Below are positions 874 through 63,875 of a stretch of 64,000 nucleotides of DNA, in pieces. The notes under the pieces are model-generated. The model had not been told where the DNA came from. It searched no databases and worked only from the letters and a program-made list of their open reading frames with translations. Made by a program: the position numbers and the translations under genes. The stretch's first letter is position 1, and the number at the start of each line of letters is the position of its first letter. The stretch is from Congeria kusceri (lineage: Eukaryota > Mollusca > Bivalvia > Myida > Dreissenidae): positions 2,435,501 to 2,499,500 of the forward strand of contig CM051030.1 of the NCBI GenBank assembly GCA_027627225.1, given 5' to 3'.

Positions 874-1067
874 ATTCATCAGCAAGGCTACAATACATGA
901 TACATCCGCATACAACCGGACTGAAGGTAACCTAATCTGCTTAAAGATGAACATATTGCCAGCGTTCGTCGACAGTATAAACAATACTGGCTTTGGCAAT
1001 GTGCAAACACAGTACTACTGGACGGGTATAGTCAGAGCAAGAACCTTGCTTAATAGAACAACGATTG
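874..1067 (+). pseudogene. Copy 1 exon C (frameshifted)
   Basis: Acceptor 'ttttag' precedes ATTCATCAGCA, as in copy 2, and donor 'gtatgt' follows. The block reads D-S-S-A-R, then shifts frame and continues as LICLK...YYWTGIVRARTLLNRTTIG. Both frames are needed to recover the family pattern, so a single-base deletion is likely. Confidence 0.65.
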
Positions 1068-1385
1068 GTATGTACCTTGTATGTTAAATTTAATACGATA
1101 TAATAATAAACGTGTCACATTTATTTTTATAGCTCAACAGTACAATTTTGAATTGCGAGTACTTTGTAAAAAAGTGTTTTATAAAGGAGAAAATAAGCTG
1201 TAAGTGATATCATGATATAAGCTCTGATGCAAGTTCCGACTATTTGTAAAAAAATAAGTATAACGGCACACATATGTTTTAACCAGTTTGTTTTTTAGCA
1301 GCGTAAAATATATAATTAATCAACATATACCATTTCACAATAATAATAAATATAATAATACGATTATTCACTGCTTGTGTTTAAG

Positions 1386-1487
1386 GTAGCACTGCATATT
1401 CAGACGTGCTATACGGATTCTTGGAAGGAATTACAGGGAAATTTAATCTTACAAAAAATGGCACCAAACAAGCTCTTTGCGTAACCA
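1386..1487 (+). pseudogene. Copy 1 exon D
   Basis: 102 nt, the same length as exon D in copies 2-5, reading STAYSDVLYGF...NGTKQALCV. The acceptor is 'tttaag'. The donor GT has become TT at 1488-1489; a cryptic gt at 1481 would break phase. Confidence 0.6.
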
Positions 1488-1734
1488 TTAATATGTGTTA
1501 CATTTAATTTCCGCGGCTTAAAAGTTAGTTATTGTGTTTGATACAGATGTATTTTTTATGTTTGGGTCTTGTGCTACAAAAATATGTAAATCGGTTTTCG
1601 TGTGTTTTCTATTAATTGTTAACCAAATTTTTCGAAGAAAAATTCGGTTATTAGATTGGGTTATGTCGTTTGGCGGGCAAGCGGTGTGGCGGCGTCAACT
1701 TCTCATTTCTGCTCTATAACTCGAAAAAGAATTG

Positions 1735-3650
1735 AGATATTTTATTGAAACTTCGTACATAGATACCTTATATCGAGACCTCGCTTGGGATTGCATATAG
1801 GGTGGGTGGGGTGGAGGTAAAGGTCACCGTTGCTAAAAATGAAAAAACGGTTTCCGCTTAATAACTTGAGAATGCATCGAGATATTTTAATGAAACTTCA
1901 TACATAGATACCTTATATCGAGACCTCGCTTGGGATTTCATATAGGGTGGGTGGGGTGAAGGTCAAAGTCACCGTTGCTAAAGATAGAAAAACGGTTTCC
2001 GCTTAATAACTTAAGAACGCATCGAGATATTTTAATGAAACTTCATACATAGATACCTTATATCGAGACCTCGCTTGGGATTGCATATGGGGTGGGTTGA
2101 TCAATGTCAAGGTCACCGCTACTAAAAAAGAAAAAGGTTTTCCGCTCAATAACTTGAGAAGGCATCAAGATATTTTAATGAAACTTCATACATAGATACC
2201 TTATATCGAGACCTCGCTTGGGATTGCATATGGGGTGGGTTGATCAATGTCAAGGTCACCGCTACTAAAAAAGAAAAAGGTTTTCCGCTCAATAACTTGA
2301 GAAAGCATCAAGATATTTTAATGAAACTTCATACATAGATACCTTATATCGAGACCTCGCTTGGGATTTCATATAGGGTGGGTGGGGTGAAGGTCAAAGT
2401 CACCGTTGCTAAAGATAGAAAAACGGTTTCCGCTTAATAACTTAAGAACGCATCGAGATATTTTAATGAAACTTCATACATAGATACCTTATATCGAGAC
2501 CTCGCTTGGGATTGCATATGGGGTGGGTTGATCAACGTCAAGGTCACCGCTACTAAAAAAGAAAAAGGTTTTCCGCTCAATAACTTGAGAAGGCATCAAG
2601 ATATTTTAATGAAACTTCATACATAGATACCTTATATCAAGACCTTGCTTGGGATTGCATATGGAATGGGTGGGATCAAGTTCAAGGTCACCGCTACTAA
2701 AAACGTTTTCCGCTAAATAAGTTGAGAACGCATGGAGATATTTAAATGAAACTTCATACATATATATCTTATATTGAGACCTTGCTTGGGATTGCATATG
2801 GGGTGGGTGTGGTCAAGGTCAAGGTCACCGTTACTAAATTTAGAAACACGGTTTCTGCTCAATAACGTTAGGATTCATAAAGATATTTTAATGAAACTTC
2901 ATAAATATATACCATATATTGAGACCTCGCTTGGGATTGCATATGGGGTGGGTGGGGTCAAGGTCAAGGTCACCGTTACTAAAGTTAGAAAAACGGTTTC
3001 TGCTCAATAACGTGAGAACGCAAAATGATATTTTAATGAAACTTCATACATATTTACCTTATATCGAAGCCTTGCTGGAGATTGCATATGGGCTGGGCGT
3101 GGCCAAGGTCAAGGTTACAGTTACTAAAAATATAAAATGGTTTCGGCTTAATAACTTGAAAACGCATCAAGATATTTTAATGAAACTTCATACATAGATA
3201 CCTTATTTTATGACCTCTCTTGGGATTGCATATGTGGTGGGTGGGGTCAAGGTCACCGTTATTAAAAATAGAAACACGGTTGTCGCTCAATAACTTGGAA
3301 ATGCATCGAGATAGTTTAATTAAACTTTATACATAGATACGTTATATCGTGACCTCGCCTGGGATTGCATGTAGGGTGGGTGGGGTCTCCATTGCTAACA
3401 ATAGAAAAATGGTTTCCGCTCAATAACTTTAGAATGCATCAAGATATTTGAATGAAACTTGATACATAGATACCCTGTATCTAGACCACGCTTGTGATTG
3501 CATATGGGGTGGGTGAGATAGGTTACTAAAAATACAAAAACGGTTTCTGCTCAATAATTTGAGAACGCATAGAGATGTTTTAATGAAACTTCATACATAG
3601 ATACCTTATAACGAGACCTCGCTTAGGAATGCATATGGCATCAAGAAACT
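1735..3650 (+). repeat. Tandem array, ~145-bp unit, about 13 copies
   Basis: Each unit carries 'gagatattttaatgaaactt', 'catagataccttatatcgag' and 'gcatatggggtgggt', with 'aaggtcaccgtt'. It fills the copy 1 intron between exon D and the stalk. Short ORFs inside it are by-products of the repeat. Confidence 0.85.
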
Positions 3651-4064
3651 TTGTTTCATGTTTGTGCTGACCTTTATGCATTTCGTTCGAAAAATTTGGT
3701 TTTCGTGGAATTTCCACGTTTCTTGTTTGTACATATTGCAATGTGTTAATAATTTATTGGCATTGATTTATTGTAATCTTACTGGTTATTGTAACACTAT
3801 TCGTAATTTTTACGTATACGTGAATTTTTAATGAGCCATTCTGTTTCTAAAGTATTTATGTTATAGAAATTGAGTGAACAAGTACACGAAGTCGTTATCG
3901 TAAAATAAAAACAATACTTTTCATCGTTAAAACAACTCTTAAAACAACAAGAACTTTATTATTTATACAAGTTTTGGATACATTTTATGTTACCATTCAA
4001 TAACTATATTTAATCTATGAATATACATAAAAATATATTCAAATATCATATTTCATGTTTTAAG

Positions 4065-4142
4065 GAACCGACACATCGTGCATGCCCATTTTAACTGAAG
4101 GCCAACCACCCATCAGAGACAAAACCACAATTCAACCCGAAG
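4065..4142 (+). CDS. Copy 1 stalk exon
   Basis: 78 nt between 'ttttaag' and 'gtagaa', reading TDTSCMPILTEGQPPIRDK..., rich in Thr and Pro. It is placed between exon D and the membrane exon as in the other copies. Its last 29 nt and its donor are repeated 128 bp downstream (4242-4270). Confidence 0.6.
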
Positions 4143-4342
4143 GTAGAACACTTATATATGTTTGTTACAAATGAATACACATTAGAAAATATACATTATT
4201 CAGTATATGTTTATACATATACTGAATAATGTATACAAAACCAGAGACAAAACCACAATTCAACCCGAAGGTAGAACATTTATATATGTTTGTGACAAAT
4301 AAATACACAATCGAAAATATACATTATTCAGTATATTTTTAT
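4114..4342 (+). repeat. 128-bp tandem duplication with hairpin
   Basis: The segment from 'cagagacaaaaccacaattc' is repeated at 4242. It includes the last 29 nt of the stalk exon and the 5' splice site. Between the copies is a perfect inverted repeat (4192-4210 / 4215-4233). Confidence 0.75.
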
Positions 4343-4404
4343 TTTATTAGTTCTTATCACATTCATACATTTATGATGACAGTGGTATTGTTTTTTGACC
4401 TCAG

Positions 4405-4495
4405 GGTCTTCAGCTTTAGGAGCAGGCATCGGTGTGTCGGTGGGAGTATTGGTCGTAGCCGGCGGTGCTGTTGTCATAATTGTGCTCAAAAGACG
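4405..4495 (+). CDS. Copy 1 transmembrane exon
   Basis: 91 nt, phase 1 in and phase 2 out. It encodes SSALGAGIGVSVGVLVVAGG followed by AVVIIVLKR: one hydrophobic Gly-rich helix ending in basic residues (stop-transfer). Acceptor 'cctcag', donor 'gtatgc'. Confidence 0.75.
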
Positions 4496-5291
4496 GTATG
4501 CATATGTATGAGTGTATGAATTTAACATGAAGCAATGATTGAGATACATAAATGGCTAATGTTTTATAGCAAATACAGACATTTTCGTTTGGCATTAATG
4601 CACGGAATTGTATATGGCGACAACAATGCAGAAAAGTGTTTATTGTTATTGTAAGATACATATTATATTGTTATTATCGTAATCTTCTGTACATGCTGAC
4701 ACAAAAAAAAATCCGCAGAAGGCACTGTATTTGTCCCTAAGCATTTTAAATACGGATGGCGTATTCCTAACGTATGCATGTTATTAATGTTATTAAAGGG
4801 ACTTTATCATCGAAAAGGGCCTCAAGGGGGCAATTTCTTAAAAAAATATGAAATTTAGATATTAATACTGGCATATAATAACAGTTAAAATAGGGTACAT
4901 ATAATGGGAAAAAATGTACGCATTCTGACGTCAGAATTGTGAGCATTTTGAATAACCATTGTTTACAAACGACACCTTACCAAACAGTTGGTTCAAGTGC
5001 TGTCTACTGTCATTTCTTCGTATGGCTTCTTAGTGCTGAGTTCGATACCCGCTTGGGGTTTTAATTATTTCAGGCTTGTTTGCTAATTTGTTTTTATCAA
5101 ATATCTTATTGTGTATTATATTTATTTTATTTATTTAATGCACATGTCTTAGTAAAGCGCATTTCTATCAAATAATATAATTTATAGTTCAATAGGAAGC
5201 CAATTTCTCGTTGGGATAGTCCCTTTAATATTGGATATTTTGTGTACGCAGAATAGTACGTTTACAGCGTGTTTCATTACAATACTTTCAG

Positions 5292-6000
5292 AAGAAAACT
5301 TCCCAATTGCATGACCAGCAAAAAATGTGAAAAGGAGGTTTTTAACAATGGCGGAAAGTCGTCTTATGAAGTAAGGCTCGATAACTCTGTAGCCAACCAC
5401 AGCTACTGTGTCCTGGAAAAACACACCATCTCAGAGGACGAACCTATGGACCATTACAATACACCAGGGTATCCAAATGAAGTCATTGCGGAAAAGGACA
5501 ATTACAATGCTATCAATGATACAGAGGAGCCACGTGGGAATGTTCAAGGAGACAACAGTGATTATGATTACACAACTAATGGGGCAACACAATCTCCTTG
5601 CAATGCTGACAATGTGTATAATAAAATGAAGCTTGACCGGCACGGGGACTACGACCATGTACAAGGACAGGCGTCAGAGTCGAGAGATGCTCAGGGAAAC
5701 GGTGACTACGACCACGTCAAAGGACAGGGGCAGATGCATAACTTCACAACAAGCAACGACTACAACACAACTGCAGCATTGGCTTCGAAAGCGAGAGGTG
5801 CTCACGGAAACGGTGACTACGACCATGTCAAAGGACAGGGGAAGACTCATTACACCACAGCAAGCAATGACTTTGACACGGCTGCAGCTACATTAGCTGC
5901 ACACGCAAAAGGCAACGAAAGTAATTACAATCACATTCCAACCAGCAAAGTTAATGCAATAATCAAAGACTACATTTTATACTTCACGCAGTGGGTATGA
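5292..6000 (+). CDS. Copy 1 cytoplasmic tail exon
   Basis: Open for 236 codons after acceptor 'ctttcag'. Contains SVANHSYCVLEKH, ISEDEPMDHYNTP, NYNAINDTEEP, then VYNKMKLDRHGDYDHV and two further GDYDHV units, ending in SNYNHI and a short divergent C-terminus. Highly polar and acidic, no Cys-rich or enzymatic domain, so probably a signalling tail. A conserved block follows the stop in another frame (to 6076). Confidence 0.75.
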
Positions 6001-7530: not shown

Positions 7531-8076
7531 AAAAAGTTCGTTTCATTGATCGTTAGCATTAACAGAAACAACACTGTAATCACCATCATTTTCATTGTCG
7601 TTGTTAGTTTTAATATTCGAGCTTCTTTAATCTTATTAAGGTGCACGGGATGGGAATGTGAATGCTATATCACAATGATCACTAAACTCAGTTGCTTCTG
7701 GAATTATATTGAAATATAATATTGCTTATTTTGAAAGGTACTGAATAGCTCCGCCCTCTCTAACTCCAAATCCTGCAACCATGCCTGTGACCGCCATTCA
7801 CATCAATGCATCTTACAAGGGAAACCATTCAAACAAACCCCCCAAAATACAGCTCAAGTGATCTGCAGCAAAAAGATGATAACTTCCTTCGTGATCCACT
7901 ATGAATTCTTCCTCCTCACGAATATATAATGGTTTGGAAAGGCAATAGGGTTGTAACCTAGAAGAACAAATATGCCTAGTATTTATAGTTAAATGGGGGT
8001 GATTGTGTAGTGGTTTTTAAACATCATTTATCAAAATAGTACATGCTTGTTGCTGGGGTTGCAAGATGGGATTCAG

Positions 8077-8169
8077 CTACTGGTGACTGTCTAACATTCT
8101 ACTACCCAGACTTTGTTTGGCGTCCATGTAATGGAACTGTTTTCAGAACAGTATTTTGTAGCAACCCAG
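8077..8169 (+). pseudogene. Orphan exon E duplicate
   Basis: ATGDCLTFYYPDFVWRPCNG then TVFRTVFCSNP, followed by donor 'gtatat'. It matches exon E of copy 2 and the match runs on through about 100 bp of the following intron (8170-8268 against 16297-16391), so this is a DNA-level duplication. A 9-nt in-frame deletion separates them. An acceptor 'gattcag' at 8070-8076 would keep phase. No partner exon lies nearby. Confidence 0.7.
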
Positions 8170-8267
8170 GTATATTTGATGCAAAAGAAAGTCAAAAGAA
8201 ACAGAGAAACAGACAACAAAAGGAATCAAATAATAAGAACTTGAAACACATTACGTTTACGAAAGAA

Positions 8268-9480
8268 ACAACGTAGCTGCTGCAGCTTATCCCCCTAACG
8301 TAGCTGCTGCAGCTTATACCCCTAACGTAGCTGCTGCAGCCTTATCCCCCCTAACGTAGCTGCTGCAGCTTATCCCCCTAACGTAGCTGCTGCAGCTTAT
8401 CCCCATAACGTAGCTGCTGCAGCTTATCCCGCTAACATAGCTGCTGCAGCTTATCCCCCTAACGTAGCTGCTGCAGCTTATCCCCCTAACGTAGCTGCTG
8501 CAGCTTATCCCCCTAACGTAGCTGCTGCAGCTTATCCCACTAACGTAGCAGCTTAACCCCCTAACGTAACTGCTGCAGCTTATCCCCCCTAACGTAGCTG
8601 CTGCAGCTTATCCCCCTAACGTAGCTGCTGCAGCTTATCCCCCTAAGGTAGCTGCTGCAGCTTATCCCCCTAACGTAGCTGCTGCAGCTTATCCCCCTAA
8701 CGTAGCTGCTGCAGCTGATCCCCCTAACGTAGCTGCTGCAGCTTATCCCCCTAACGTAGCTGCTGCAGCTTATCCTCCTAACGTAGCAGCTGCAGCTTAT
8801 CCCCCTAACGTAGCTGCTGCAGCTTATACCCCTAACGTAGCTGCTGCAGCTTATCCCCCTTACGTAGCTGCTGCAGCTTATCCCCCTAACGTAGCTGCTG
8901 CAGCTCATCCCCCTAACGTAGCTGCTGCAGCTTATCCCCCTAACGTAGCTGCTGCAGGCTTATCCCCCTAACGTAGCTGCTGCAGCTTATCCCCATCGCG
9001 TAGCTGCTGCAACTTATCCCGCTAACATAGCTGCTGCAGCTTATCCCCGTAACATAGCTGCTGCAGCTTATCCCCCTAACGTAGCTGCTGCAGCTTATCC
9101 CCCTAACGTAGCTGCTGCAGCTTATCCCCCTAACGTAGCTGCTGCAGCTGATACCCCTAACGTAGCTGCTGCAGCTTATCCCCCTAACGTAGCTGCTGCA
9201 GCTTATCCCCCATAACGTAGCTGCTGCAGCTTATCCCCCTAACGTAGCTGCTGCAGCTTATCCCCCTAACGTAGCTGCTGCAGCTTATCCCCCTAACGTA
9301 GCTGCTGCAGCTTATCCCCCTAACGTAGCTGCTGCAGCTTATCCCCCTAACGTAGCTGCTGCAGCTTATCCCCCTAACGTAGCTGCTGCAGCTTATCCCA
9401 CTAACTTAGCTGCTGCAGCTTATCCTCCTAACGTAGCTGCTGCAGCTTATCCTCCTAACGTAGCTGCTGCTGCTCTGCAG
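8268..9480. repeat. 27-bp minisatellite, roughly 44 units
   Basis: Unit 'aacgtagctgctgcagctta' plus 'tccccct'. Each unit holds the palindrome-like AGCTGCTGCAGCT. The unit is nine codons long, so short ORFs (GISCSSYVR repeats on the minus strand) are by-products. It begins exactly where the orphan exon's intron homology ends. Confidence 0.9.
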
Positions 9481-10320: not shown

Positions 10321-10375
10321 ATGTGGTGGTACGGAATTCTAGGAGTTTGTCAACTAGTTATTATGTCAGTTAAAG
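10321..10375 (+). CDS. Copy 2 signal-peptide exon
   Basis: ATG at 10321 opens MWWYGILGVCQLVIMSVKG, a short hydrophobic leader with small residues before the expected cleavage point, then donor 'gtaata'. Copies 3 and 5 have leaders of exactly the same 55 nt, which fixes the start. Confidence 0.8.
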
Positions 10376-13300: not shown

Positions 13301-16300
13301 TAGAACTGGAACACAAAAGCTGATATGTCTATAGATGTTGTAAGCCGAAACCGGTAAAACGCTCTTACAAAAGAATGGATGCATATAACAGATGAAACAT
13401 AGTTGATAGTTTGACTTAAAATATCTACATGTAACTGGTGTTGAGGACTGCTTGTAAATAGGTTATGAACTTAGTTAAATACAAAACAATATTGGATTTA
13501 GGTTTTGCCTTATAGAAATGTATGTGTATGTCTTTTGACACCATGTAGCATAAACAGTTAGGCTGGACCTGACCAGTAGTCCCTGTTTATTATCCATAAC
13601 TACATCAACATTACATTTGGATGCACAACGTGTTCATGGTGAGCTTTTGTGATCGCCTTCTGTCCGTCGTTCGTCGTCCGTCGTGCGTCGTCAACATTTA
13701 CCTCGTTAACACTCTAGAGGCCACATTTAGTGGTCAATCTTTGTGTAACTTGGTCAGAACATTTGACCCAATGAGATCTCGGTCGAGTTCGAATCTGGGT
13801 CATGTGGGGTCAAAAACTAGGTCACTATGTCAAATTGACACATTTTTTTCCCAATCTTCTTGAGACTTGCGCTAAACATTTGTTCTAATGATATCTCAGC
13901 CGAGTTAAAAAATGGTTGCCCTCCGTTGAAAAACATGGCCGCCTGGGGGTGGAGCAGTTTTCCTTATATGCTATATTGAAAACTTTATAAAGTTTTTAAC
14001 ACTGTAGCAGTCGCATTTTTTGCACAATCTTCATGAAACTTGACAGAACATTTGTCCCAATGATATCTCGGCCGAGTTCGAATCTGGGTCATTTTGGGTG
14101 AACAACTAGGTAAAATTGAAGAAAAAGCTTGTTAACACTCTAGAAGTATTATTTTTTGCCCAATCGTCATGAACTTGGTCAGGACATTTGTCCCAATGAT
14201 ATCTCGGCCGAGTTCGAATCTGGGTTATGTGGGGTTAAAAACTAGGTCACTAGGACAAATTGAAGAAAAAGCTTGTGAACACTCTAGAAGTCGCACTTTC
14301 TGCCCAATCTTCATGAAACTTGGTCAGAACATTTGTCATAATAATATCTCGGCCGAGTTCAAATTTGGGTCATGTGAGGTCAGAAACCAGGTCACTAGGT
14401 CAAATCGAAGAAAAAGCTTGTTAACACTCTAGAAGTAACATTATTTGTCCAATCGTCATGAAACTTTGTTAGAACATTTGTCACAATAGTATCTCAGTCG
14501 AGTTCAAATCTGGGTCATGTGGGGTCAGAAACCAGGTCACTAGGTCAAATTGAAGAAAAGCTTCAATTTCAATACGTACTTCCCAAATTTTGAATGTCTG
14601 TCGTCACTTAAGTTTTTCAAACCATGATGATTAAGGCCGCATTTCAATAAGTCCGTATCAGTATATCCATATCCGTATAAAAATCTAACACATGTACAAT
14701 TGTTCGACTAATGAAACTCAGGTGAGCGACTCAGGGCCATTTGATCCTATTGTTTCATGTTTTTATATCTTTGTTTTTATTGCAGCTGAAAATTACAGCG
14801 TAAGCTACTGCTCAACAGAATGGCGTTCAGTTAATTGCGATCTGGCAGAACCGAAGATATTTCCAAATACAGGTTTCTTTGAAGTTGGCGAATCTCTGGT
14901 CATAAATTCTGATGTTTGGATCGGCTATCGACTTGCAAATGTATCCTTTCTATTCATTGGTAACAACGCATTTATTACACTGGGCTTAATTATATTTTGT
15001 AAGTATAGAAATGAGGGATATATATATATAGTTGAAGTGGATACTTTGAAGAAAAAGCAAAAAGATATACCTTGTATTCTAATGGATACACATTCTAAAT
15101 ACATTGTGAATTTGCTTTCAATGTTAGTAAGTAAAACATTTAAAGACCATAATGAAAATACAGAGTTTTCCACATAATGTTGACTACCATGGTCATCTTA
15201 AAATACATACAATACTGTTTTATTTGTTGACTATGTTTTAATGAACATTGCAATGCTTGTGTATAGTTTATGATGAAATACATTTATCTCTTTTTAGCAT
15301 ATACAATTATTTACGTACATATGCTACTTGTGTTCTAATTTTTAAGTTAACTAACTTGGTATACTTTTATTTCTAATTTTCTGTATATTAAAGGATGTTC
15401 AATAATACAAAGCAATCAATCATACACAGTAACCAGCATCGGTTTTTGCTCTACCGTGTGCGGAGATGTTGCATTCGGAATACAACCAGGCAACAATGTA
15501 AATACATTATCTATTTTACAAGGAAGTATACCATATTTAACAGTTAGAATAAATCTTAAAATGTAAAAGACTCAACTTCTGTAATTACCAACAAATGTTA
15601 ATTTAGTGCTGGCAGAAACAACAACAGTCATCTTCCACATATATCTTCTACTCAATAGATAGGTTTAACATGCATTTACACGTATTTATAAAATAAATAT
15701 TTTGTAAGGATTGTTTTGTTTCATTATTTTGTTTCATTTGGTATACATTATAAATAATTAATGATTTATTTTGAAACAGACTCAGATGGAGTGTCGATGT
15801 GCCAACGGAACTGAAATCACAGCATTAAAGAAATGCCCGAACAAGGATGGCTTCTGTAATCAAAGCAACAATGAATGCTTTTCGGTATACACTCAAATAA
15901 AGGGTAAATAAAATAAATAAAAGCACAATATGTTATCACCAAAAAAAAAGTTATATACATAAAAAAAACTACCTGATGTTTTCTGCACGAATAAAACCAC
16001 ACACTTTGGTATCTCCAAAAAAATTAATTATAAAAAATTAATTATTAATACTACGAGTGAGTATTGTTAGCTACATGTATTTCTAGTGTTTGTTTAGCTT
16101 ACATGTTTGTTATATTCATGCAATGCGTTTATATCTTGTAATATATTGTCATGCGCAGTCAACAGTTCAAGTGTGACACACGGCACCGATGTAGCTACTG
16201 GTGATTGCCTAACATTCTACCACCCACATTTTGTTTGGCGTCCATGTAATGGAGCTGTTTACAGAAAAGTATTGTGTAGCAACGGTTCATACCAAGGTAT

Positions 16301-38615: not shown

Positions 38616-38689
38616 GTAAGTGTTTACGTTTATGTTAATACACATATTTCCCCCCAAAACAAACAAGCCCTACAAATAAGCCAATACCC

Positions 38690-39410: not shown

Positions 39411-39419
39411 TTCTCTTAC

Positions 39420-42540: not shown

Positions 42541-42544
42541 CATA

Positions 42545-46848: not shown

Positions 46849-46977
46849 GTAAAGTTTCCTAAAAATAATGTTTAACTAATGGGAATCCATTTATGAATGG
46901 CATAATTGCACATACAGTTATACAATAATATACAATATAATATGTGGCAAAATTTTTAAAATAAGTGTCAAGTCTAG

Positions 46978-47760: not shown

Positions 47761-48039
47761 AATTAAAAAAAAAACTACTAAATTAAACGAAACACATAAA
47801 ATGACGTCATGAAAATCAACAAAATGACGTCATTGTTGTATGTAAACAGAAAAGTACGTCGTGCTAGTTTTACTGTTTCTTGTAAAGTGTTCAATGCACA
47901 TGTCGGGAATCAAAAGAGAAATTCCAAAAAAGTATTTTTAGCCCATATGATATTAAATCCTAGACACATCAGCAGGAGAAAAACCCTTATTAACATCCTC
48001 AGGACCTTTAGTTGAGGCAAGTGATTAATTGCCTATAAA

Positions 48040-48595
48040 ACACAGTACAAATAGTAGGACACGGATGCCTCCACATTGTCACACAAATTTGCTGATGTCG
48101 GAAAAACTGTACCAAAAATACCCAGTTAACATGCTGATTAATATGTTTATAAAGTTTCATCACTCTAGCAATAATACTTATTGAGTTACACACGACACTA
48201 GTCCAAAAATGTATTTAAAAAAAAAGAAAAAGGACCATAACTCCGCTGATATCGGAAGAAACTGCACCAAAATACGCAGGTGCACAAGTTCACATGCGGA
48301 TTAATATGTTTATAAAGTTTCATCACTCTAGCAGCAATACCTTTTGAGTTACACGCGACACAAGTCCAAAAATATCATTTTTTTCTAAAAAGGGCCATAA
48401 CTCCGCTGATGTCAAAATCTGCACCAAAATACCCAGGTGCACAAGCCCTGATGCCAATGAATATGCTTATCAAGTTTCAGCACTCTAGCAGTTATACTTT
48501 TTGAGTTATGCGCGACACAAAAATCCGACGGACGGACGGACGTACAAGGGCAAATCTATATGCCCCCCCCCTCTAAAGTGGGGGCATGAATAACA
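48040..48595. repeat. Dispersed repeat, three ~165-bp units
   Basis: 'gccataactccgctgat', 'tttataaagtttcatcactc' and 'ttgagttacacgcgacac', ending in 'cgacggacggacggacgta' and 'tatgccccccccc'. Sits in the copy 4 intron before the membrane exon. Confidence 0.75.
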
Positions 48596-48760
48596 CACCA
48601 CATCACGAAACAACATGATTAAAACTGGGGTCACCGCCCTGGAATGGTTGATGAAAATCGTAAGAAACATTTACCACCTTGAAGTTTTTTTTCTCTGTTG
48701 ATAAATGACGTGAAAGTTAGGCGGAATTATTATTTATATTTTAATAATTTTCCTTCCCAG

Positions 48761-48851
48761 AGTCTTCAGCGTTAGGAGCAGGCATCGGTGTGTTGGTAGG
48801 GATATTGGTTTTAGTAGGAGTAGCTGTTGTCGTCTTTGTGCTCAGAAGACG
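48761..48851 (+). CDS. Copy 4 transmembrane exon
   Basis: 91 nt. ESSALGAGIGVLVGILVLVG then VAVVVFVLRR. Acceptor 'ttcccag', donor 'gtaagt'. Confidence 0.78.
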
Positions 48852-49011
48852 GTAAGTATATTTTTACTTACCACGTGTATGACGGCATATAAAGCTAGCA
48901 TTGTGTAAGAAGTAGGCATAACTGGGACACATAAATAGTAAAGCATTATATTAACTATACAATGCGGTTTCTCGAAGATAATTTGTGTCTGTATGCTTCT
49001 ACATTTTTTAG

Positions 49012-49648
49012 GTGTTATCGTTATTGTACGAAAAGGAATGCCTATGAAAAGGAGGGTCTTACACAAGACGGAAAGGCGCCTACTGAAGCAAAAGTCGGTA
49101 ACTCTGTAGCCAACCACAACTACTTTGTACAGGAGGAACACTCCATCTCAGAGGACGAACCTGTGGATCATTATAATACACCAGACGATCCAAATGAAGT
49201 CATTGCGGACGAGGACAATTACAAGTCTATCAATGATACGAAGGATCGACCACGTGGAAACGTTCAAGGCGACAACAGAGATTACGATAACACAACTAAC
49301 GGGGCAACAAAATATCCTGGCAGGAATCCAGACAACGTATATAATAAACTGAAGCTTGACCGGTACGGGGACTACGACCATGTTCATGGACAGGGGCAGA
49401 TGTATAACTTCACAACAAGCAACAACTACAACAAGACTGAGGCTACATCGGTTTCGATGTCGCGAGGTGCACGCGCACAAGGTGACTACCATCATGTGAA
49501 GGTACATGGACAGATTCATAACGTCACCTCAAGCAACGACTATGACACAATTTCAGCTCTACCGGCTGTGGCGGCGAGAAGTGCAGGTGCAAAAGGTAAC
49601 GAAAGTACTTACAATCACATTTCAAATCCAACCAGCAAGGTTCATTGA
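49012..49648 (+). CDS. Copy 4 cytoplasmic tail exon
   Basis: 637 nt, open, 212 codons. NHNYFVQEEHSISEDEPVDH, DNYKSINDTKDRPRGN, VYNKLKLDRYGDYDHV, GDYHHVKVHG, NDYDTISAL and STYNHI. The spacing Y-N-K-L, seven residues, Y-D-H-V is ITAM-like. Strong conservation suggests the copy lost function recently. Confidence 0.78.
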
Positions 49649-52448: not shown

Positions 52449-52503
52449 ATGTCTTTTTACGGTTTTCTAGGTCTTTTGTTTTGGGCGTATATCCCAGTGA
52501 AAG
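52449..52503 (+). CDS. Copy 5 signal-peptide exon
   Basis: MSFYGFLGLLFWAYIPVKG aligns with MWWYGILGVCQLVIMSVKG of copy 2 and is the same 55 nt, followed by 'gttagt'. An ATG three codons upstream (52440) could also start (MLEMSFYG). Confidence 0.7.
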
Positions 52504-55500
52504 GTTAGTATTTATGGTTCATGTTCGTATATGTTTTAAATTCACACAGCTTAACATTTAATTAAAAATTGAATAGAATTTTTCTGCCTTTCATTGGTGT
52601 ATGAACTTAGGAAATTACGCCTAATTTGCATAAACACCGACGGCGTTTATAAATGCATACATTAGGCGTAATTTCCCCCATCCACAGTTCAAACACCAAT
52701 AAAAATGCAGAAAAATAGTATTCAATTCTTATAATTACAATCAAAGGTGGATAAAAACTTTACTTTTAATTGTCTAAGGGCCGCAACTGGCGCGCAGCCT
52801 CTGGCGTAGTAATCCCCTTTTTAGTTTCGGTTTCCTTTTTGTCGAAAGGCATTTCTAATATCTCGTCAGACATTGCAAACCGTTGTTGATAATTTTTATA
52901 GTGGAGTTTCTGGTAAAACAATTCAAACTTTCCAATATGCGTTAACAATTTCATCGTCTGCAACACCGGCGACCGATAAATCAGCTATTTTGTTTACGAA
53001 CAATAGTGTATACATCGTATGCGTTCACGCAAAACAATGGGGTCATTCGCAAATAGAGAATGAAAGAAAACATCGTTAAGGTTCGCGCAAAACAATGTCT
53101 TCAATTCTCAAATACATAATGAAAAATTAGTACGGTCATGAATAATAACGAGGTAATTTGCATACGCAGCCGATACATCGGAGTATGAATGACAGGTCAC
53201 GTGGGCGAATTATCCAATCAGAATGCAGCGCTGACGTGAAAATGCAAAACGTTGTAATTATTAAACCTTTACACCGAACTGTATCGCATAGGTTATTTAT
53301 GCATATTTAGATTTGCTTTTAAACATTTTCTTGTAACTCTTCAAACCACAATGATTTGTCCAGATGCAATTTTGTTATTAGTTATAAGCTATATTAGATT
53401 TGCTATGAAGTTAAATTTTATTAATAATTGTGTGAATGTGATTAGCTCGGGGCTAAGTGTGAGGTTCGGCATGCCTTAAAACCGGTTTGAACCCATCGCT
53501 TTGCATTGACTGTTCCCCAATTTTAATAATTTTTTATGTTTTGTGTTTTGTTGTGCGTATTGTACTGTATATTTGTTCGCTTGCATCAAATAAAGGATCT
53601 GCGGATGTTAATAAGGACTTATCTCGTGGTGATGTCTCCGGAGTTTTATTTTTGTTATATTACATCAATTTGTTTCGAATGAGTGCAGTTCTTATTGCAA
53701 ATAGATTCTACTACAAAACAGTAATAAATTCGTCTCTTGTTCTGAAACGATATTTAACATGAAGCACACATATTAGGTTTGTGATAGTTTTCTTAGTTTA
53801 TATTAACAATGCTATTTGTGTTGCTTTTTTTACATAGAAAAATCGTATGTTTCTAAAGTGTTTAAATCACAAGCGTTTTATTTTTCATTTCAGCTGACAA
53901 CTTTAGCGTGAGTAGTAACCTAACAAACTGGCATTCAGTCCACTGTGTTCTGGCAGAACCAAAGCTTTCTTTGCAGAACGACTCTTTTCAAGTAAAAGAA
54001 TCCTTCGATTCATTTGGAAATGACTCTGTTTGGATCGGCTATATTTCCACAAAGGTTCCGTTTTTATTTCTAGGTAATGATCTACCATTTTGTTCAGTGT
54101 TAAGATGCAAATGGTATTTGGTACAAAATAATATACATAGGTTTAGAGATTTAAAGGCATTTCTAAAGAAGGTTTTGATAAATTGACAATCTTTACTTAC
54201 AGCAATACTATAAAACACACATTTTGTATGTAGGTTTTCTTGCAAACCTATGTTTTATGGCGACAATGACATTAATATATTGTGTAAAGTAAACCTGTGT
54301 GTTGAAAACTATCGTTTGACATCCATGAGGAATACGGCATCTGTGGAAATAAATGATTTGCATCATTGGTCAGTTGGTTATTTGTTATTTACAATATTGG
54401 ATTTTTTCTGTATTTTAAAAAAAAAAAGAAGGTCGGTGGATCCGAGAAACTAACTTAAAATCAACAAACTGTAATTGTATTAATTTAGGGTGCGCACACA
54501 TCAACAACAAGACGTCATACACAGTAACGAGTATTGGTTATTGCAACAACATCTGTGAAGGCGGGATATTTGGTATCCAGATAATCCAGGATACAAATGT
54601 AATACAAATACAAGTATAGTATTGACCTAATTGTGTACTCATGAAAAGTTAAAATTCTTGGACATAAATATGAATGTAATTTTTGTAAATAAATGACACA
54701 CATATTTTATTATATTTTGAGTGTGTTATTATTATGTATATATTAAAACATTTTTAAAATCGTGTATGGTGAAATAACGGACATCTGATGAAAGGTTTTA
54801 ATGTTTGATTAAGAAATATTTTTCGATTTGTCGTTGTTTATAGGTCAATAAACAACGATTTGGAGTTCGGATGCATAGGAATTAAACCTTGAGGGCGTTA
54901 GTCCGAGTTGTTTAATAGCGACGCATCAGAACGACAAAGAGTTGTTCATTGGCCAATAAACAACGATAATGCGATAATTATTTCGATTCTAACATGATTG
55001 TACATATATATTTTTGCAATTGTAATTGGAACTACTTTTTACTTTGCTCCGCCCAATTTGGGACTTCTTTTTGCGTTGTTTATTGGGTAGTTTAACAACA
55101 ATAATTTTATTCTTTGTCTTAAGAAAAATTAGCGAGTATCATGATAGAATATAATTTTCTGCATGTTTTTCGAAACACTAAACTGCACCAATAATAAATG
55201 TTGTAATACATTTATTTTTATTGTTAATTAATTACTGATTATTAATGTTTGCTGAATTTTATTTACGTCATGTTTCTGTTACCGCTTAGAATCAAACTCG
55301 ATTGGAGTGTCGATGTGTAAATGATTCGAAGAATACAACGTTAGGGAAATGCTCTTCGGACAAGTATAGATGTTACGTTTTATACACTGAAACAAATGGT
55401 TAGTGGCATGTTTTAACACATGTATTATTTATATCGACTGTGCACAACTCGTTTCTGAACATTCAATGCAATGCGCACTATAATCAATTTTTGATAATGA

Positions 55501-58500
55501 TGCTACTTGTTTATCAAGATGCTAATTATTTATTTAGAGCGTTTTTGTAATGATGAACGTTTTCCGTACAAAGAAAACATCGTCATAGATTCTGGACCAA
55601 CCGATGAGCCAACCGGAGATTGTCTGACATACTTCTCTCGATCTTTCGTATGGTTTCCATGTAGCAGCGTCACCACATCGCCATATGTTTTGTGCAGCAA
55701 CGCATCTTTCTCAGGTATTTAAAAACAGTGTTTAATTTAACGTCCATATATTTTTGGTGTTGGACAATTTAAAGAAATCGAACATATTGAATCCATACGT
55801 AGGTTCCTTACTTACCAACTATTAAATGTGTATAATGCATAAAAAAATATTGACACAATTTATGGAAATACTAATCCACAGAAAAGCCGTGTTTTGTCAA
55901 AATGAAATAGGTGTACAATACACACGAATTAACGAAGTTAAAAAGTAAAAGTGGTTGTGAATAGTCTATAACTACCTCGTAAATTTGAATCACAAGTTTA
56001 AACGCTGAATAAACCATCTCTAACCATATCAAGCACCGATATTAAAATTGGAATCATTAATATTCACAGATTTATCGGCAATGGCGAAAGTTAATGAGGT
56101 AACAAAGAATCGTTGGACTGATAGCAATGAACTGTGTTCGAATAATAGCAAATATCCAACGTCGTTACGACATATACTTAATGCTAAGTTTGGCGAGGAC
56201 AAGAATAAATACTTTTGGACAGGGGTTATCAGAGCAAACACCTTGATCAGCAGAACACAAATCGGTGAGTTTTTTGTTATTTCTTGTATAATACATGTAC
56301 TTTATGGCTTTAAGCATACAGAGTAGTGATTTTGATTGACGTATTTTTTATAAGGTCAATATATAGAGAATATTAGGTGAGTGTTAGATAAAGAAAACGT
56401 TTATCATGCGAGGCTTAGAAACAGATAAGCGCGATGCTTTATCATATTATGCTATGCTCATAAATCAGGTAAACCACATGAAAATATGCCCTCCCCCCAA
56501 AAAAAAATAATAAATAAATAAATAAAATAAAATAAATATTACGTTTCCTAGTTTTAAAACTGTTTTTGTTTACTACAAACGTCATCATTTGGTATGACGT
56601 CACATTGAAATACATAGCGTTCTAAAAATAACGATCGAAAAAACTTGTGCTATAAATAGCGATCGGATAAAACTTAAGTATATACGATGGGTTGTTATCC
56701 GATCGATTCGGCTGTAGTAATAGGGTAAGAAATGATTTTGCAAAACACGACAGTACATTTAAAAACGACACTATTAATCATAATCACGAGAGGTTTATCC
56801 GTTAAACAGAATCTTACTTAAATTGATTGCCTGAAGTGTTTTATTACTGTATTTTCTTTACTTTAAATTGTTGACCTAGTTTACAAACCGAAGAGCACTA
56901 TTGTTTCCGACACCCTGTGATCTACTTTCCGGAACAATGATTACCATGCCACCCACAAACGACAGGGATAGCAAATCACTGTGTTCCCCATTTAAAGTAC
57001 ACTTAAGTTTGTGCAATGATTCATCCATTGTTCGATTGTGGTTAATTTATTTGATAGTAACTTTGACGTTATTTTTATTTAATATGCAGAGTGAAGTTAT
57101 ATGCGGGAATATTTTGCAGACTAGAACTCCGCGAGTCTGATGCGTCACCTGACGGGGCATAACTCAAGTACAATAAAAGCAATTATGCCGAAAACCAAAC
57201 TTAACCTTCTTTTGCCTACTAACACTTCCCTAAAGCTTCATAATGATTGCACAAATACTTCTAAAGTTATTGCTTGCACAAACCTTACTTGAACTTTTTA
57301 AAATAAAGGGGCATAACTCATGTACGGTATGAGCAGTTATGCCGAAAACCGAACTTAATCTTCCTTTAACGCCTTCTAACACTTCCTTAAAGTTCCGTAA
57401 TGATTGCACAAAAACATCTGAAGTTATTGTCTGCACAAGTCTTATTTGAACTATTTTTAACAAGGGGCATAACTCAAGTATGATAGACCAATTATGCCGA
57501 AAACCAAACTAATCCTTCCTTTTTATGTCTACTAACACTTCTCTAAAGTTTCGTAATGATTGCACAAACATTTCTCAAGATATTTTCTGTACAAGTCTTA
57601 TTTGAACTACTTTATTTTGTTTAAAAAGGGGCATACGAGAACAGCTATTATGCCGAAAATCGAAGTTAACCTTCCTTTAATGCCTTCTAACACTTCCCTA
57701 AAGTTTTATAATGATTGCACAAAATCGCTGCAGCCGCTAAAAACGCCGCCGATGCCGACTAAAGTAATCCCTATATGTCACCATTTCAGGCGACACAATA
57801 CAATTGACTACTTTTTTATGAGACAGTTATTACAACCTGCTAGTATTTTTGTTTAAGGAAACGCATCAAACCCAGACATGCAATATGTATATATCAACAT
57901 GAGAGACAGGGTACTTCAGTTCACCAACAGCAGCAACAAAAAAGCTCTATGTGTGAACGGTAACACATTATGTATTTTGTGTTTGAATTAAACATTAGCG
58001 CATAGATAGGCAGTTGATTTACATTTTATTGTACCAAGAGTTTTCTAAGTTAACAACTTAAAGCAGCAATCCAGAAATATGTAAACAAAAAAATGTGGAC
58101 ATTCCACCTAAGCCTACGCCACACTAATAAAGGAAAGGATGCCAAGTGAATGTCATAGATATGGCTAAGAAAACAAAAACTTAATTCGTTCTTGAGCCGA
58201 TAAGCACTAGCTACTTTTTTATTTTCAGTGACCCACCCCATAAGGAATCCCAACAGAGGTCTTGATATACGGTATCTACATATGAAATTTTCATTACAAT
58301 ATCTCAATTCGTTCTCAAGTTATTAAGCGGATTTTTTTTTCTATTTTTAGTAACAGTGACTTTATATGCAATCCCCATATGCAATCCCAAAAAGGTATCT
58401 ACTTATGAAGTTTCATTACAATATATCAATTGGTTCTCAAGTTATTGAAAAAAAACAAGGGTTTTAGCTATTTTCGGTAAGTGACCTTGACCTTTACCCA

Positions 58501-60805
58501 ACCCACCCTTTATGCAATTCCATGCGAGGTCTCAATATAAGGTACTAGTATCTATGTGTCATTGAAATATCTCAGATCGTTCTCTAGTTATTGAGTAGAA
58601 ACCGGTTTTTTCTGTTTATAGTAGCTGTGACCTTGACCTTCACCACACCCACCCAATATGCAATTCCAATCGAGGTCTTATTATAAGGTACCTACATATG
58701 AAGTTTCATTACAATATCTCAATTCCTTCTCAAGGTATTGAGGGGAAACCTTTTTCTTGGTTTAGTAACAGTGACCTTGACCCCACCCGCCCGATATGCA
58801 ATTCCATGCGAGGTCTTGATAAGAGGTATCTACAAATGAAGCTTCATTAGAATATCTCAATTCGTTCTCAAGTTATTGAGCGGAAACCATTTTTCTATTT
58901 TTAGTAACAATAACTTTGACCTTAACAACACGCACACCATACCCATTGCCAAGCAAGGTCTCGTTATAAGTTCTACATATGAACTTCCATTAAAGTATTT
59001 CAATTCGTTCTGGAGTTATTGAGCGGAAACTCGCTGACCGCCTGCCGCCAGGAGACCAACAACATACAATTATTCTATGGACTGCGGCTTTAAGAAAACT
59101 AAATAGTTCCGCTTCAACGTACGCGACCAAAACATGCAAACACTATCAATCCATAAACTATTATTCAAGTGGAAAGTATAATTTATAATTGACAGGACAA
59201 ATCATTTACGCAAACGTTTTCATTTTTTTTTATATTCAGATATTGAACAGTCATCGCCAACGGTTACACATACCAAATCTACACCTGAAACCGACAAAGG
59301 TATGCGTTACATATATACCTGTTTAACCGCGTACTTCTCGTTGTATTATTGAATTATAATACTACAGCATACGATGATTCTAATTTTTTATGTTGTACAC
59401 TATCTATCGAATTCGAATAATTTTATACCCGAGGACATATTGTACATACATTTATGAAGTATGCGTTACATATATACCTGTTTAACCGCGTATTTCTCGT
59501 CGAATTATTGAATTATAATACTACAGCATACGATGATTTTAATTTTTTCTGTTGTATACTATCTATCGAATAATTTTTATATTCGAGGACATATTGTACA
59601 TACATTTATGAGCAAAAGTGGAAATAATTTCGGGTTTGGTATATTCAATCTAGAGTTTCCAGTAGTATGAGTAGTCATCGGTGTGTCGGTTGGGTTGATG
59701 TTGATAGTTGGAGGAGCACTTTTAATGAATATACTCAGAAAACGGTTTGTAGTCTTTCTTTACGTATTGTTTTTATTAAGAGATTGTTTTTCTGTTCTCG
59801 TACTGGGTGCAAGATAAACATATTGCATACTAGGAAAGCAAATAAGAACAACAGACATAGATATTCAACATTTAATTCAACACAAATGAAAGTTATTTGA
59901 GTCCTTGTATCAGTCTTGATGGTGGTGCCTCTCATTTGAAACGACTTAACCAACTGGACTGATATCGTTATGTTTTGTGTTCATCTACCACATAAATACA
60001 GCAAGTCTTTTTGCATATCTATTATTGTTTAACCACATTAGGTGACTTTGTTGTCACGTGATTATGATTATCGTTTCTTTTCAGAGGTACATTACAACTG
60101 TGCATGAAGGAGAACAATGGTAAATTGTCTAACATCAACCATTCATTGGAAAAAGGACCGTCTAATGAAGCAAGCGTCGATAACTTTGTAGTCAAGGATA
60201 GCAACCTTGTACTGGAGAAACACATGATCTCAGAGGACGAACCTATTGACCATTGCATCACACCAGGCGATCCAAATGAAGTCATTGCGGACGAGGACCA
60301 TTATCATTCTATCAATGATACAGAGGTACAACGTAGCCATGCAAACAGCAAAAACGGCGAATACGATTACACAACTAATAATGCAACCACTTCTGTCAGG
60401 AATGCAGACAATGTGTATAACAAACTGAAGATTGTCCGGCACGGGGACTACGAACATGCACATGGACAGGGGCAGACTCATAACATAACAACAAGGAACG
60501 ACTATAACACATCTGCAGCGAGGGATGCTCATGGAAACGGTGACTATGACCATGTAAAGGGACATGAACATAACGTCACAACAAGCGAAGACCGTGACAC
60601 AACTGCAGCCATTGCTTTGAATGCGTGGGATGCTCACGGAACAGGTGACTACGACCATGTCAAGGGACAGGGACATGAACATAACGTCAAAACAAGCAAC
60701 GACTATGACACTACATTGACTGCAAACGCAAACAATGCAGGTGCAAACGGTGACGAAAGTAATTACAACCACATTACAAATCCAACCAGCAAAGTGTGTG
60801 AATAA
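52449..60805 (+). CDS. Receptor copy 5 (open if a shifted TM acceptor is used)
   Basis: Exons: 52449-52503, 53894-54073, 54489-54598, 55290-55398, 55538-55714, 56070-56264, 57858-57959, 59240-59299, 59675-59744, 60085-60805. Sum 1779 nt, in phase, 592 aa plus stop. Approximate residues: leader 1-18, exon B 19-78, WSC-like 79-151, exon E 152-210, CTLD-like C and D 211-309, stalk 310-329, membrane helix 330-352, tail 353-592. The acceptor homologous to other copies (exon start 59654) would put TGA 59668-59670 in frame just before the helix; a downstream AG at 59673-59674 removes it and keeps phase. The most diverged copy here. Function inferred as for copy 2. Confidence 0.75.
52568..52727. mobile_element. 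~160-bp MITE-like foldback
   Basis: Outer arms 'gaatagaatttttctgcctt' and 'gcagaaaaatagtattc' and inner arms 'ggaaattacgcctaa' (52610-52624) and 'ttaggcgtaatttcc' (52662-52676) are complementary. It lies in copy 5 intron 1, just past the leader exon. Confidence 0.75.
53894..54073 (+). CDS. Copy 5 exon B
   Basis: 180 nt. ADNFSVSSNLTNWHSVHCVL, AEPKLSLQNDSFQV, DSVWIGYISTKVPFLFLG. Acceptor 'atttcag', donor 'gtaatg'. Confidence 0.8.
54489..54598 (+). CDS. Copy 5 WSC-a exon
   Basis: 110 nt, phase 1 to 0. GCAHINNKTSYTVTSIGYCN then NICEGGIFGIQIIQDTN. Confidence 0.75.
55290..55398 (+). CDS. Copy 5 WSC-b exon
   Basis: 109 nt, phase 0 to 1. NQTRLECRCVNDSKNTTLGK then CSSDKYRCYVLYTETN; eight Cys in the two WSC exons together, as in copy 2. 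Confidence 0.75.
55538..55714 (+). CDS. Copy 5 exon E
   Basis: 177 nt, longer at its 5' end than in other copies (ERFCNDERFPYKENIVIDSG), then TGDCLTYFSRSFVWFPCSS and YVLCSNASFS. The extra N-terminal Cys is unique to this copy. Confidence 0.77.
56070..56264 (+). CDS. Copy 5 exon C
   Basis: 195 nt. KNRWTDSNELCSNNSKYPTS then YFWTGVIRANTLISRTQIG. Acceptor 'ttcacag', donor 'gtgagt'. Confidence 0.8.
57150..57740. repeat. ~150-bp tandem dispersed repeat, four units
   Basis: 'ggggcataactcaagta', 'ttatgccgaaaaccaaactt' and 'agttccgtaatgattgcaca' recur. Located in the copy 5 intron between exons C and D. Confidence 0.75.
57858..57959 (+). CDS. Copy 5 exon D
   Basis: 102 nt. NASNPDMQYVYINMRDRVLQ then FTNSSNKKALCVN; several NxS/T sequons. 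Confidence 0.77.
58050..59090 (-). repeat. Inverted relative of the 145-bp array at 1735-3650
   Basis: Units read as the reverse complement: 'tgaccttgaccttcaccaca', 'ccacccaatatgcaattcc', 'gaagtttcattacaatatct', 'cgttctcaagttattgagcg'. In the copy 5 intron between exon D and stalk. Confidence 0.82.
59240..59299 (+). CDS. Copy 5 stalk exon
   Basis: 60 nt, the shortest stalk: IEQSSPTVTHTKSTPETDK, Ser/Thr/Pro-rich, probably O-glycosylated if surface exposed. Confidence 0.65.
59300..59610. repeat. ~158-bp direct duplication
   Basis: 'tatgcgttacatatatacct' followed by 'gtttaaccgcgta' occurs at about 59300 and 59459, both followed by 'aatactacagcatacgatga'. It ends just before the copy 5 membrane exon. 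Confidence 0.8.
59675..59744 (+). CDS. Copy 5 transmembrane exon (shifted acceptor)
   Basis: 70 nt from AG at 59673-59674. VIGVSVGLMLIVGGALLMNI then LRK: a helix of about 21 residues. Starting at 59654 would give the 91-nt length seen in copies 1 and 4, but with an in-frame TGA. Confidence 0.6.
60085..60805 (+). CDS. Copy 5 cytoplasmic tail exon
   Basis: 721 nt, 240 codons plus TAA. EKHMISEDEPIDHC, HYHSINDTEVQ, VYNKLKIVRHGDYEHA, two GDYDHV units, NDYDTTLTANANNAG and SNYNHI. AATAAA overlaps the stop codon (60801-60806). Confidence 0.82.
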
Positions 60806-62988: not shown

Positions 62989-63142
62989 AGGTTATATTTA
63001 AAACATATCCTTACCCTTGCCAAAGAGGTTATATTTAAAACATATCCTTACCCTTGCCAAAGAGGTTATATTTAAAACATATCCTTACCCCTGCCAAAGA
63101 GGTTATATTTAAAACATATCCTTACCCTTGCCAAGGAGGTTA
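62989..63142. repeat. 37-bp direct repeat, four units
   Basis: 'aggttatatttaaaacatat' then 'ccttacccttgccaaag', almost identical each time. Confidence 0.9.
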
Positions 63143-63192
63143 TGTTTTGTCGCCGTTGATTTGAGGTTTTATATGTTTGATTAGATTTTGGT

Positions 63193-63208
63193 GGTGATCC
63201 GGATCACC
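63193..63208. repeat. 16-bp palindrome
   Basis: 'ggtgatccggatcacc' is a perfect palindrome, possibly part of a dispersed repeat that begins at about 63145. Confidence 0.6.
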
Positions 63209-63695
63209 GTCTGAATCCAAGAATATTGTAAAACCTCTTTATTATTAGGAGATAATGAAAGGGAACTTGGTGGAGCTCTATGCTCTCCAAGTGCTTTATA
63301 GTTACATGTACATATTACATTTATTTGTTATCGTACAAGAGACTCGCAGCTATGTCGAATTGCCAGTTCAAAGAGCAAAGATACACCTACGATAAGCTGC
63401 GATAATGTACTAAATATCTATTCAGTGAACTAATCACATACGAGTGCTGATAATTATTGCATAATTATATTATCAAATGTACCATTAGATTAATTTGAAC
63501 CGGTCATAGTAACTCAATGCATGCATTTGAATTGTCTGACAACGAACTAAGTAATAATTAAAACGTTGTTTGTGACGATTATATTAACATATAGCAGGTG
63601 CAAATATTTTAACGCGTATGCAATTCACGTATAATAGAACGCTTACATGTTTGTCATTCGTTAAATGTTGAGAGCAACGTTTGTATACATTTCAG

Positions 63696-63875
63696 GACAA
63701 TACATTTTAAGCAATATATCAACGAAATGGAATGATGCAGAATGTTATCTGGCCGAACCAGAACTTGATTATAAGAACGACCTCTTTGAACTGAAAGAAA
63801 CTATTGACGTGCTGCCTTTCGATTCTGATGTCTGGATCGGCTATATCTTGGCAAAGGTTCCCTTTCTGTTCTTAG
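63696..63875 (+). CDS. Receptor copy 6, exon B (rest beyond window)
   Basis: 180 nt, phase 1-1. GQYILSNISTKWNDAECYLA, EPELDYKNDLFEL, SDVWIGYILAKVPFLFLG. Acceptor 'atttcag', donor 'gtaaat'. It shows that the array continues to the right. No leader exon could be assigned to it within the window. Confidence 0.78.

Follow-up and report, generated by a model that had tools for sequence, protein, structure and literature searches.

A tandem array of ten-exon genes in Congeria kusceri

The 64,000-nucleotide stretch of the Congeria kusceri genome analyzed here (GenBank assembly GCA_027627225.1, contig CM051030.1, positions 2,435,501 to 2,499,500 of the forward strand; hereafter the window) carries on its + strand a tandem array of genes that probably encode single-pass membrane receptors. 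The window is AT-rich, with multi-kilobase introns and a eukaryotic appearance; no tRNA was found in it, and no Rfam family reached its gathering threshold. An all-against-all comparison of the stop-to-stop open reading frames in the window recovered recurrent exon families, with tail exons spaced 11–17 kb apart. The match between the tail exon of copy 1 and that of copy 5 (E = 2e-68) shows that these families are not a product of chance. There are ten exons per gene, in the order S-A-B-C-D-E-F-G-H-T, and the junction phases are identical in copies 2 and 5 (S-A 1, A-B 1, B-C 0, C-D 1, D-E 1, E-F 1, F-G 1, G-H 1, H-T 2). When spliced, the ten exons of copy 2 yield 552 amino acids and those of copy 5 yield 592, in each case with AG-GT at the internal borders and a sole, terminal stop. 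The signal exon (MWWYGILGV...) first showed up as two matching sequences, one ahead of copy 2 and one ahead of copy 3, and later in copy 5; it was not found for copies 4 or 6. The hinge exon of copy 5 was the single candidate to pass the thresholds in a scan of the F–H interval. The resulting products begin with a signal peptide and a cysteine-rich ectodomain. A variable hinge then leads to a single transmembrane helix, and the long tail beyond it is enriched for YxxPhi motifs, of which several lie in YDHV-type repeats. That the products would be type I receptors is the firmest inference we draw.

Of the five copies represented by more than one exon, two are intact in this assembly (Table 1). 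A preliminary description of the stretch had called copies 2 and 5 fully open, and splicing returned the same two lengths. It had also extended one ten-exon plan with identical phases to all copies, which holds for copies 2 and 5, whereas only E to T is seen in copy 1 and only A in copy 6. Its picture of tandem turnover with an orphan exon is borne out, the orphan being a partial exon D. Copy 3, which it singled out as dead, does have stops in several exons but is not the sole broken copy, copies 1 and 4 being broken too.

Relatives of these genes were sought among ∼5.8 billion proteins by a search that depends on shared 5-residue words and may therefore overlook distant ones. With the copy 5 ectodomain as query, the 1182 candidates included four proteins of the zebra mussel, Dreissena polymorpha (E 1.5e-45 to 1.2e-39, identity 31–37%). 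With a family profile and E up to 10, seven of 3456 candidates matched, every one from D. polymorpha, and no other species appeared among the protein-search matches. Whole copy 2 as query found no relatives among the 8000 candidates scored, a list that repetitive tail words possibly filled. The seven proteins represent six genes, all annotated as uncharacterised: LOC127860952, LOC127861059, LOC127861186 and LOC127859844, together with the fragments LOC127842184 and LOC127832243. A single contig of 66,979,997 bp carries five of the proteins (four genes), and two other contigs carry one protein each. P0002 is 41% identical to copy 2 and 37% to copy 5. Segment order, transmembrane helix and tail style are the same as in the window copies, with shorter tails in P0002 and P0003. 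The possibility that the exons belong to separate transcripts is contradicted by these zebra mussel gene models, in which a single protein carries the same segments. Isoforms X2 and X3 of LOC127861186, which as X isoforms are RefSeq predictions, are without the exon F and exon D segments, respectively, and the borders of the missing segments coincide with phase-1 junctions of the window genes. As far as searched, the family appears limited to the window mussel and D. polymorpha. One further isoform, P0007 (LOC127832243 isoform X6, on another contig), has 189 amino acids, a first part almost identical to P0005, an end just after the WSC-like module described below and a different C-terminus; it is possibly a soluble product.

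Table 1. Positions of the gene copies and exons within the window (∼, approximate border)
Feature	Position	Strand	Remarks
Copy 1	874..6000	+	3′ half only, E to T seen; runs off left window edge
Copy 1 exons	E 874-1067, F 1386-1487, G 4065-4142, H/transmembrane 4405-4495, tail ∼5292-6000	+	E frame-shifted; F without GT donor
Orphan partial exon D	8075..8271	+	exon to 8169, then downstream intron; 85% identity with 16193-16390 of copy 2
Copy 2 exon S	10321..10375	+	signal peptide, MWWYGILGV...
Copy 2 exon A	14786..14959	+	putative N-terminal half of CTLD-like domain 1
Copy 2 exon B	15394..15497	+	WSC-like module, first part
Copy 2 exon C	15780..15903	+	WSC-like module, second part
Copy 2 exon D	16159..16296	+	putative C-terminal half of CTLD-like domain 1
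Copy 2 exon E	16985..17182	+	putative N-terminal half of CTLD-like domain 2
Copy 2 exon F	17795..17896	+	putative C-terminal half of CTLD-like domain 2
Copy 2 exon G	18347..18412	+	hinge
Copy 2 exon H	18531..18612	+	transmembrane helix
Copy 2 exon T	22076..22691	+	cytoplasmic tail, 5 YxxPhi; stop 22689-22691
Copy 3	27058..33480	+	decayed, stops in several exons; borders approximate
Copy 3 exons	S 27058-27112, A from ∼27537, B ∼28026-28132, C ∼29712-29832, D ∼30088-30218, E ∼31245-31439, F 32182-32283, G ∼32480-32569, transmembrane ∼32697-32787, tail from ∼33310	+	tail truncated
Copy 4	36776..49648	+	broken
Copy 4 exons	A 36776-36958, B 38488-38594, C 43502-43622, D 43935-44072, E 46017-46210, F 46747-46848, G 47094-47174, H 48761-48851, T 49012-49648	+	E frame-shifted, donor GC
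Copy 5	52449..60805	+	intact, 592 amino acids
Copy 5 exons	S 52449-52503, A 53894-54073, B 54489-54598, C 55290-55398, D 55538-55714, E 56070-56264, F 57858-57959, G 59240-59299, H 59675-59744, T 60085-60805	+	
Copy 6	63696..63875	+	exon A only, then window ends

Candidate domains of the ectodomain and the tail

Ahead of the hinge, transmembrane helix and tail, the ectodomain appears to be built from a C-type lectin-like domain (CTLD) whose long loop is replaced by a nested WSC-like module, followed by a short second CTLD-like domain, an arrangement that our comparisons support but do not prove. The module is encoded by exons B and C. Compared by hhalign with a two-sequence WSC profile (Wsc1 and a piece of Kremen-1), B+C reached a probability of 62.8% (E 7e-5) and a score of 28.0, higher than all 200 shuffles (the highest scores were 15.6 among 100 column shuffles and 25.4 among 100 in which the cysteine columns were fixed). 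The same WSC profile gave 0.1% with A+D, 0.1% with E+F and 41.5% with the uncut A–D segment, where the match lay over the module. There are eight cysteines in B+C of copy 2, P0001, P0002, P0003 and P0005, seven in copy 5 and six in the broken copy 4. The module shares with the WSC domains of Wsc1 and Kremen-1 the order of cysteines with C-x3-C and C-x-C, an FGI/FAL-type stretch ahead of C-x-C and, in four of seven family members, a closing S-[VI]-Y. It differs from them in that its last three cysteines are spaced differently, in its apparent insertion into a CTLD-like domain and in lying below Pfam detection, PF01822 (WSC) being unlisted at E up to 5 for whole proteins and up to 10 for the isolated modules.

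The two halves of the first CTLD-like domain would then be exons A and D. When these were joined with B+C removed (a profile of seven sequences), all four PDB matches at E up to 10 were to LY75 (E 0.053–0.15), and the alignment spans positions 3–103, through the junction. The same seven sequences with B+C left in gave no PDB match, and joining A to the wrong half, F, gave six, of which two were LY75 at E 0.71 over positions 3–62, the A part only. In LY75 the long loop is the stretch between WIGL and the second cysteine, and it is this place that the WSC-like module occupies in the family. A whole-ectodomain profile returned two transmembrane-region matches and no CTLD, though this is not a clean control, as the E+F matches were lost too. 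For the second domain, all three PDB matches of an E+F profile from the window copies were to mannose receptor or NKG2-D, with the similarity to solved CTLDs covering the N-terminal half only; in hhalign comparisons from which LY75 CTLD2 was left out, E+F scored 16.7, exceeded by none of 100 shuffles. CTLDs are marked by four canonical cysteines in order, with EPN/QPD and WND as calcium and sugar motifs. A+D has four invariant cysteines in all seven rows and E+F the outer pair only, in all six rows. No WND-like string occurs in any of nine sequences, copies 2 and 5 being scanned over the ectodomain, and EPN-like strings are confined to the tails of P0001, P0005 and P0006. Pfam Lectin_C (PF00059) stayed below its cut-off, reaching E 0.017 in one of six members of one set of family sequences (16.3 versus 22.6 bits) and at best E 0.029 in one of seven members of another. 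CFEM, DUF6548, Podoplanin and other Pfam names were likewise sub-threshold and were taken as chance. Because the matches are sub-threshold and hhalign is indecisive, we word these domains as ‘CTLD-like’.

In the cytoplasmic tail, YxxPhi motifs (Phi being I, L, V or M) were counted against shuffles in copies 1, 2, 4 and 5 and in P0001, P0002, P0003 and P0005. The four window tails contain 7, 5, 6 and 5 motifs, respectively, against shuffle means of 2.0, 1.3, 2.0 and 1.5 (p 0.001, 0.0045, 0.0065 and 0.0115), and enrichment was also significant in P0005 (p 0.0015) and P0001 (p 0.0315), making six of the eight tails. YDHV-like strings occur two to four times per window copy, and the strict immunoreceptor tyrosine-based inhibitory motif (ITIM), [ILVS]xYxx[ILV], is found once per tail in all four window tails counted. 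In copies 1, 2, 4 and 5, a conserved GYEHVTKEC-like peptide follows closely after the tail stop in another frame (6000-6076, 22695-22800, 49650-49764 and 60806-60915), while the comparable end of P0005 (DYEVINGQK...DYAHV) is in frame. For the window copies, we considered a last small exon that would encode GYEHVTKEC and rejected it on inspection, as its donor and acceptor phases do not fit; the peptide is left as an unexplained out-of-frame relic.

Several results weigh against the nested arrangement or against a signalling receptor. The CTLD matches in the PDB are not significant (E 0.045–0.84), and the four unrelated matches of the wrong-join control include a flagellin family protein at E 0.014, so an E-value of 0.05 alone means little. 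In hhalign comparisons with five CTLDs, joined A+D scored 20.4 and uncut A–D 22.6 (through the A part only); without LY75 CTLD2, joined A+D scored 17.0 over 47 columns and two of 100 shuffles scored higher. Adding zebra mussel sequences to the E+F profile gave mannose receptor, PLA2 receptor and RGS5, two of the three being CTLD proteins, and a profile comparison of the family's CTLD-like domain 1 with domain 2 gave no match. A B+C profile search of the PDB, which holds WSC chains, returned no WSC chain, and no Pfam domain was above cut-off in copies 2 and 5 (the latter without hinge) or in four zebra mussel proteins. AlphaFold2 gave no usable model for the seven zebra mussel proteins (predicted local distance difference test score, 26.9). 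YxxPhi enrichment was not significant in two of the eight tails, P0002 (p 0.13) and P0003 (p 0.25), the strict ITIM was absent from all four zebra mussel tails counted, and three of five copies are broken. YxxPhi is, moreover, also an endocytosis signal. Set against the preliminary description, the signal peptide, ectodomain, single transmembrane helix and tyrosine-rich tail are upheld by the spliced models. Its WSC-like assignment is supported by profile–profile comparison and not by Pfam or the PDB profile search; its CTLD-like assignment is the weaker of the two, the PDB matches being mostly CTLD proteins and Lectin_C staying below cut-off; and the domain order is not simply WSC plus CTLD, the module apparently lying within the first CTLD-like domain.

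The dual meaning of YxxPhi opens a different explanation, in which these proteins are endocytic scavenger receptors like the mannose receptor family, with an ectodomain that captures glycoproteins or particles and tail motifs that bind the AP-2 clathrin adaptor and not SH2 proteins. That the CTLD matches fall mostly in the mannose receptor family (LY75, MRC1, PLA2R) and that six of the eight tails are enriched in YxxPhi are both consistent with it. However, the family has two short CTLD-like domains against the 8–10 of mannose receptors, its ectodomains are without EPN and WND motifs, and YDHV-type repeats over ∼200 residues are more than one sorting signal requires. We regard endocytic capture as unlikely, and keep a signalling receptor as the preferred reading of the tail.

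Damage, age and turnover of the exon blocks

Frame shifts interrupt exon E at different places in copies 1 and 4, exon F of copy 1 is not followed by GT, and GC replaces GT as the exon E donor of copy 4; sequencing error may account for the damage that leaves copies 1, 3 and 4 broken in this assembly. Between copies 3 and 4, taking the copy 3 exon borders as approximations, nucleotide identity is 96% in D, 85% in C and E, 80% in the transmembrane exon, 79% in A, 72% in G, 69% in B and 64% in F, with 59% over the alignable 251 bases of the tail. Between copies 1 and 4 it is 80% in the tail, 81% in the transmembrane exon, 67% in E and 64% in F. These identities indicate that exon blocks differ in age and point to a mosaic birth-and-death process acting by exon blocks. 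At four-fold degenerate sites, agreement in three pairs was 18/42 (A–E), 13/27 and 13/29 (A–D) in the ectodomain and 29/39, 35/43 and 32/43 in the tails. Agreement is thus higher in the tail (Fisher p 0.007, 0.007 and 0.014), although the pairs are not independent and misalignment of the ectodomain would act in the same direction. Gene conversion of the tails was considered as a source of this agreement, but among the matches listed for the tail-flanking introns, none exceeded 200 bits; synonymous constraint or an older exchange may underlie it. In the ectodomain, the synonymous rate (dS) was often saturated, and in the short exons F and H the ratio of non-synonymous to synonymous rates (dN/dS) was above 1 in three pairs.

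One could take the whole locus for a largely relic array, a decaying family of little present function in which the two open copies are survivors. The three broken copies and the persisting orphan exon fit such a history. Yet copies 2 and 5 retain every splice site and an open frame across ten exons, tail dN/dS is below 1 in six of six pairs (0.42–0.69, point estimates with no significance test), and there are several annotated zebra mussel genes. We consider a relic array quite improbable. Rapid turnover is also compatible with reproductive recognition, that is, with gamete-surface proteins that mediate sperm–egg compatibility and diversify under sexual conflict. Nothing was found, however, that ties the family to gonads, and gamete adhesion proteins are typically without long signalling-type tails; we regard reproductive recognition as rather improbable. 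Finally, the tandem array of intact and broken copies, the mosaic exons and the tyrosine tails are what self/non-self (allorecognition) receptors, polymorphic between individuals, might show; but no allorecognition system is known in solitary mussels, and we rate this explanation as very improbable. A literature search for a comparison with Hydractinia found no paper.

Apart from the genes, the window is rich in tandem repeats. Directly after the orphan exon D lies a 27-bp minisatellite of 44.7 copies (8270-9474), one frame of which reads AAAYPPNV. A 54-bp array with 95% matches (28394-29443) lies within the B–C intron of copy 3 and is open in frame for ∼350 codons on both strands, and a 109-bp array of 12 copies with 98% matches (19367-20670), apparently a recent expansion, lies inside the long H–T intron of copy 2. 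Arrays with units of ∼138–172 bp occupy introns and spacers at 1706-3638, 58392-59030, 6899-7429, 11156-11864, 13989-14563, 34628-35267, 48124-48520 and 57154-57724, the first two being inverted relatives, and we take them to resemble bivalve satellite or Helitron core repeats.

Candidate functions and known systems

Weighing these points, we favor, with confidence about evenly divided, a tandem array of type I single-pass membrane receptor genes whose most likely role is in innate recognition, with microbes or parasites as targets; more broadly, a role in immunity or self-recognition is plausible. Under this explanation, the ligand of the ectodomain would be a glycan or protein carried by a microbe or another cell, and signalling in haemocytes or other surface cells would proceed through SH2 adaptors or phosphatases recruited by the tyrosines of the tail. 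Duplication of exon blocks, together with decay, would turn the array over and so give rise to lineage-specific receptors, and skipping of D or F, each flanked by phase 1 on both sides, could delete one half-domain per transcript. A bolder and rather unlikely extension is that the family forms a Dreissena-specific class in which a WSC-like carbohydrate-binding module replaces the CTLD ligand loop, exon skipping is able to dismantle either CTLD, and the mosaic, fast-turnover cluster provides an individual-specific recognition repertoire.

Molluscs are without antibodies, and their cell-surface recognition of parasites is for the most part poorly understood; the few loci with a phenotype include the snail GRC and PTC2 clusters. 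Here a comparable array, with candidate binding modules and a signalling-type tail, is found in a bivalve belonging to the same lineage as the invasive zebra mussel. Should the WSC-like module indeed be nested within a CTLD, this would be an unusual route to a new binding face, and since skipping of D and F is present in zebra mussel gene models, the architecture is testable with existing RNA-seq.

Among known proteins, the mannose receptor family (LY75, MRC1, PLA2R) and NKG2-D/Ly49 resemble the window family in their weak CTLD profile matches, but they are without the WSC-like insert and have no significant sequence relationship to it. NKG2-D and Ly49 are type II proteins, and Ly49 arrays, like the window array, mix intact genes and pseudogenes. 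Similar in composition are the bivalve-specific CTLD proteins with extra domains, WSC among those named, that are described as uncharacterised and in some cases modulated in mussel experiments (PMC10140915). The likeness lies in a bivalve CTLD combined with other domains including WSC; the difference is that the accessible text of that paper describes no nested arrangement, tyrosine tail (for the WSC type) or tandem array. The family studied here may overlap its WSC-type proteins, and beyond this paper none of the records listed by our literature searches describes a family of this kind or a nested CTLD. A WSC domain protein is also listed among mussel gill transcripts in PMC4581086.

In the snail Biomphalaria, GRC and PTC2 are clusters of polymorphic single-pass transmembrane genes linked to parasite resistance (PMC4361660, PMC7494358), and, as in the window, they are mollusc clusters of fast-diverging genes of this type. 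PTC2 is said to have no known domains except the transmembrane segment and no homology outside gastropods, and polymorphism and phenotype are shown there, whereas the window array is known from the sequence of one assembly. With these differences in mind, the snail GRC and PTC2 clusters appear to be the nearest functional analogue of the Congeria array.

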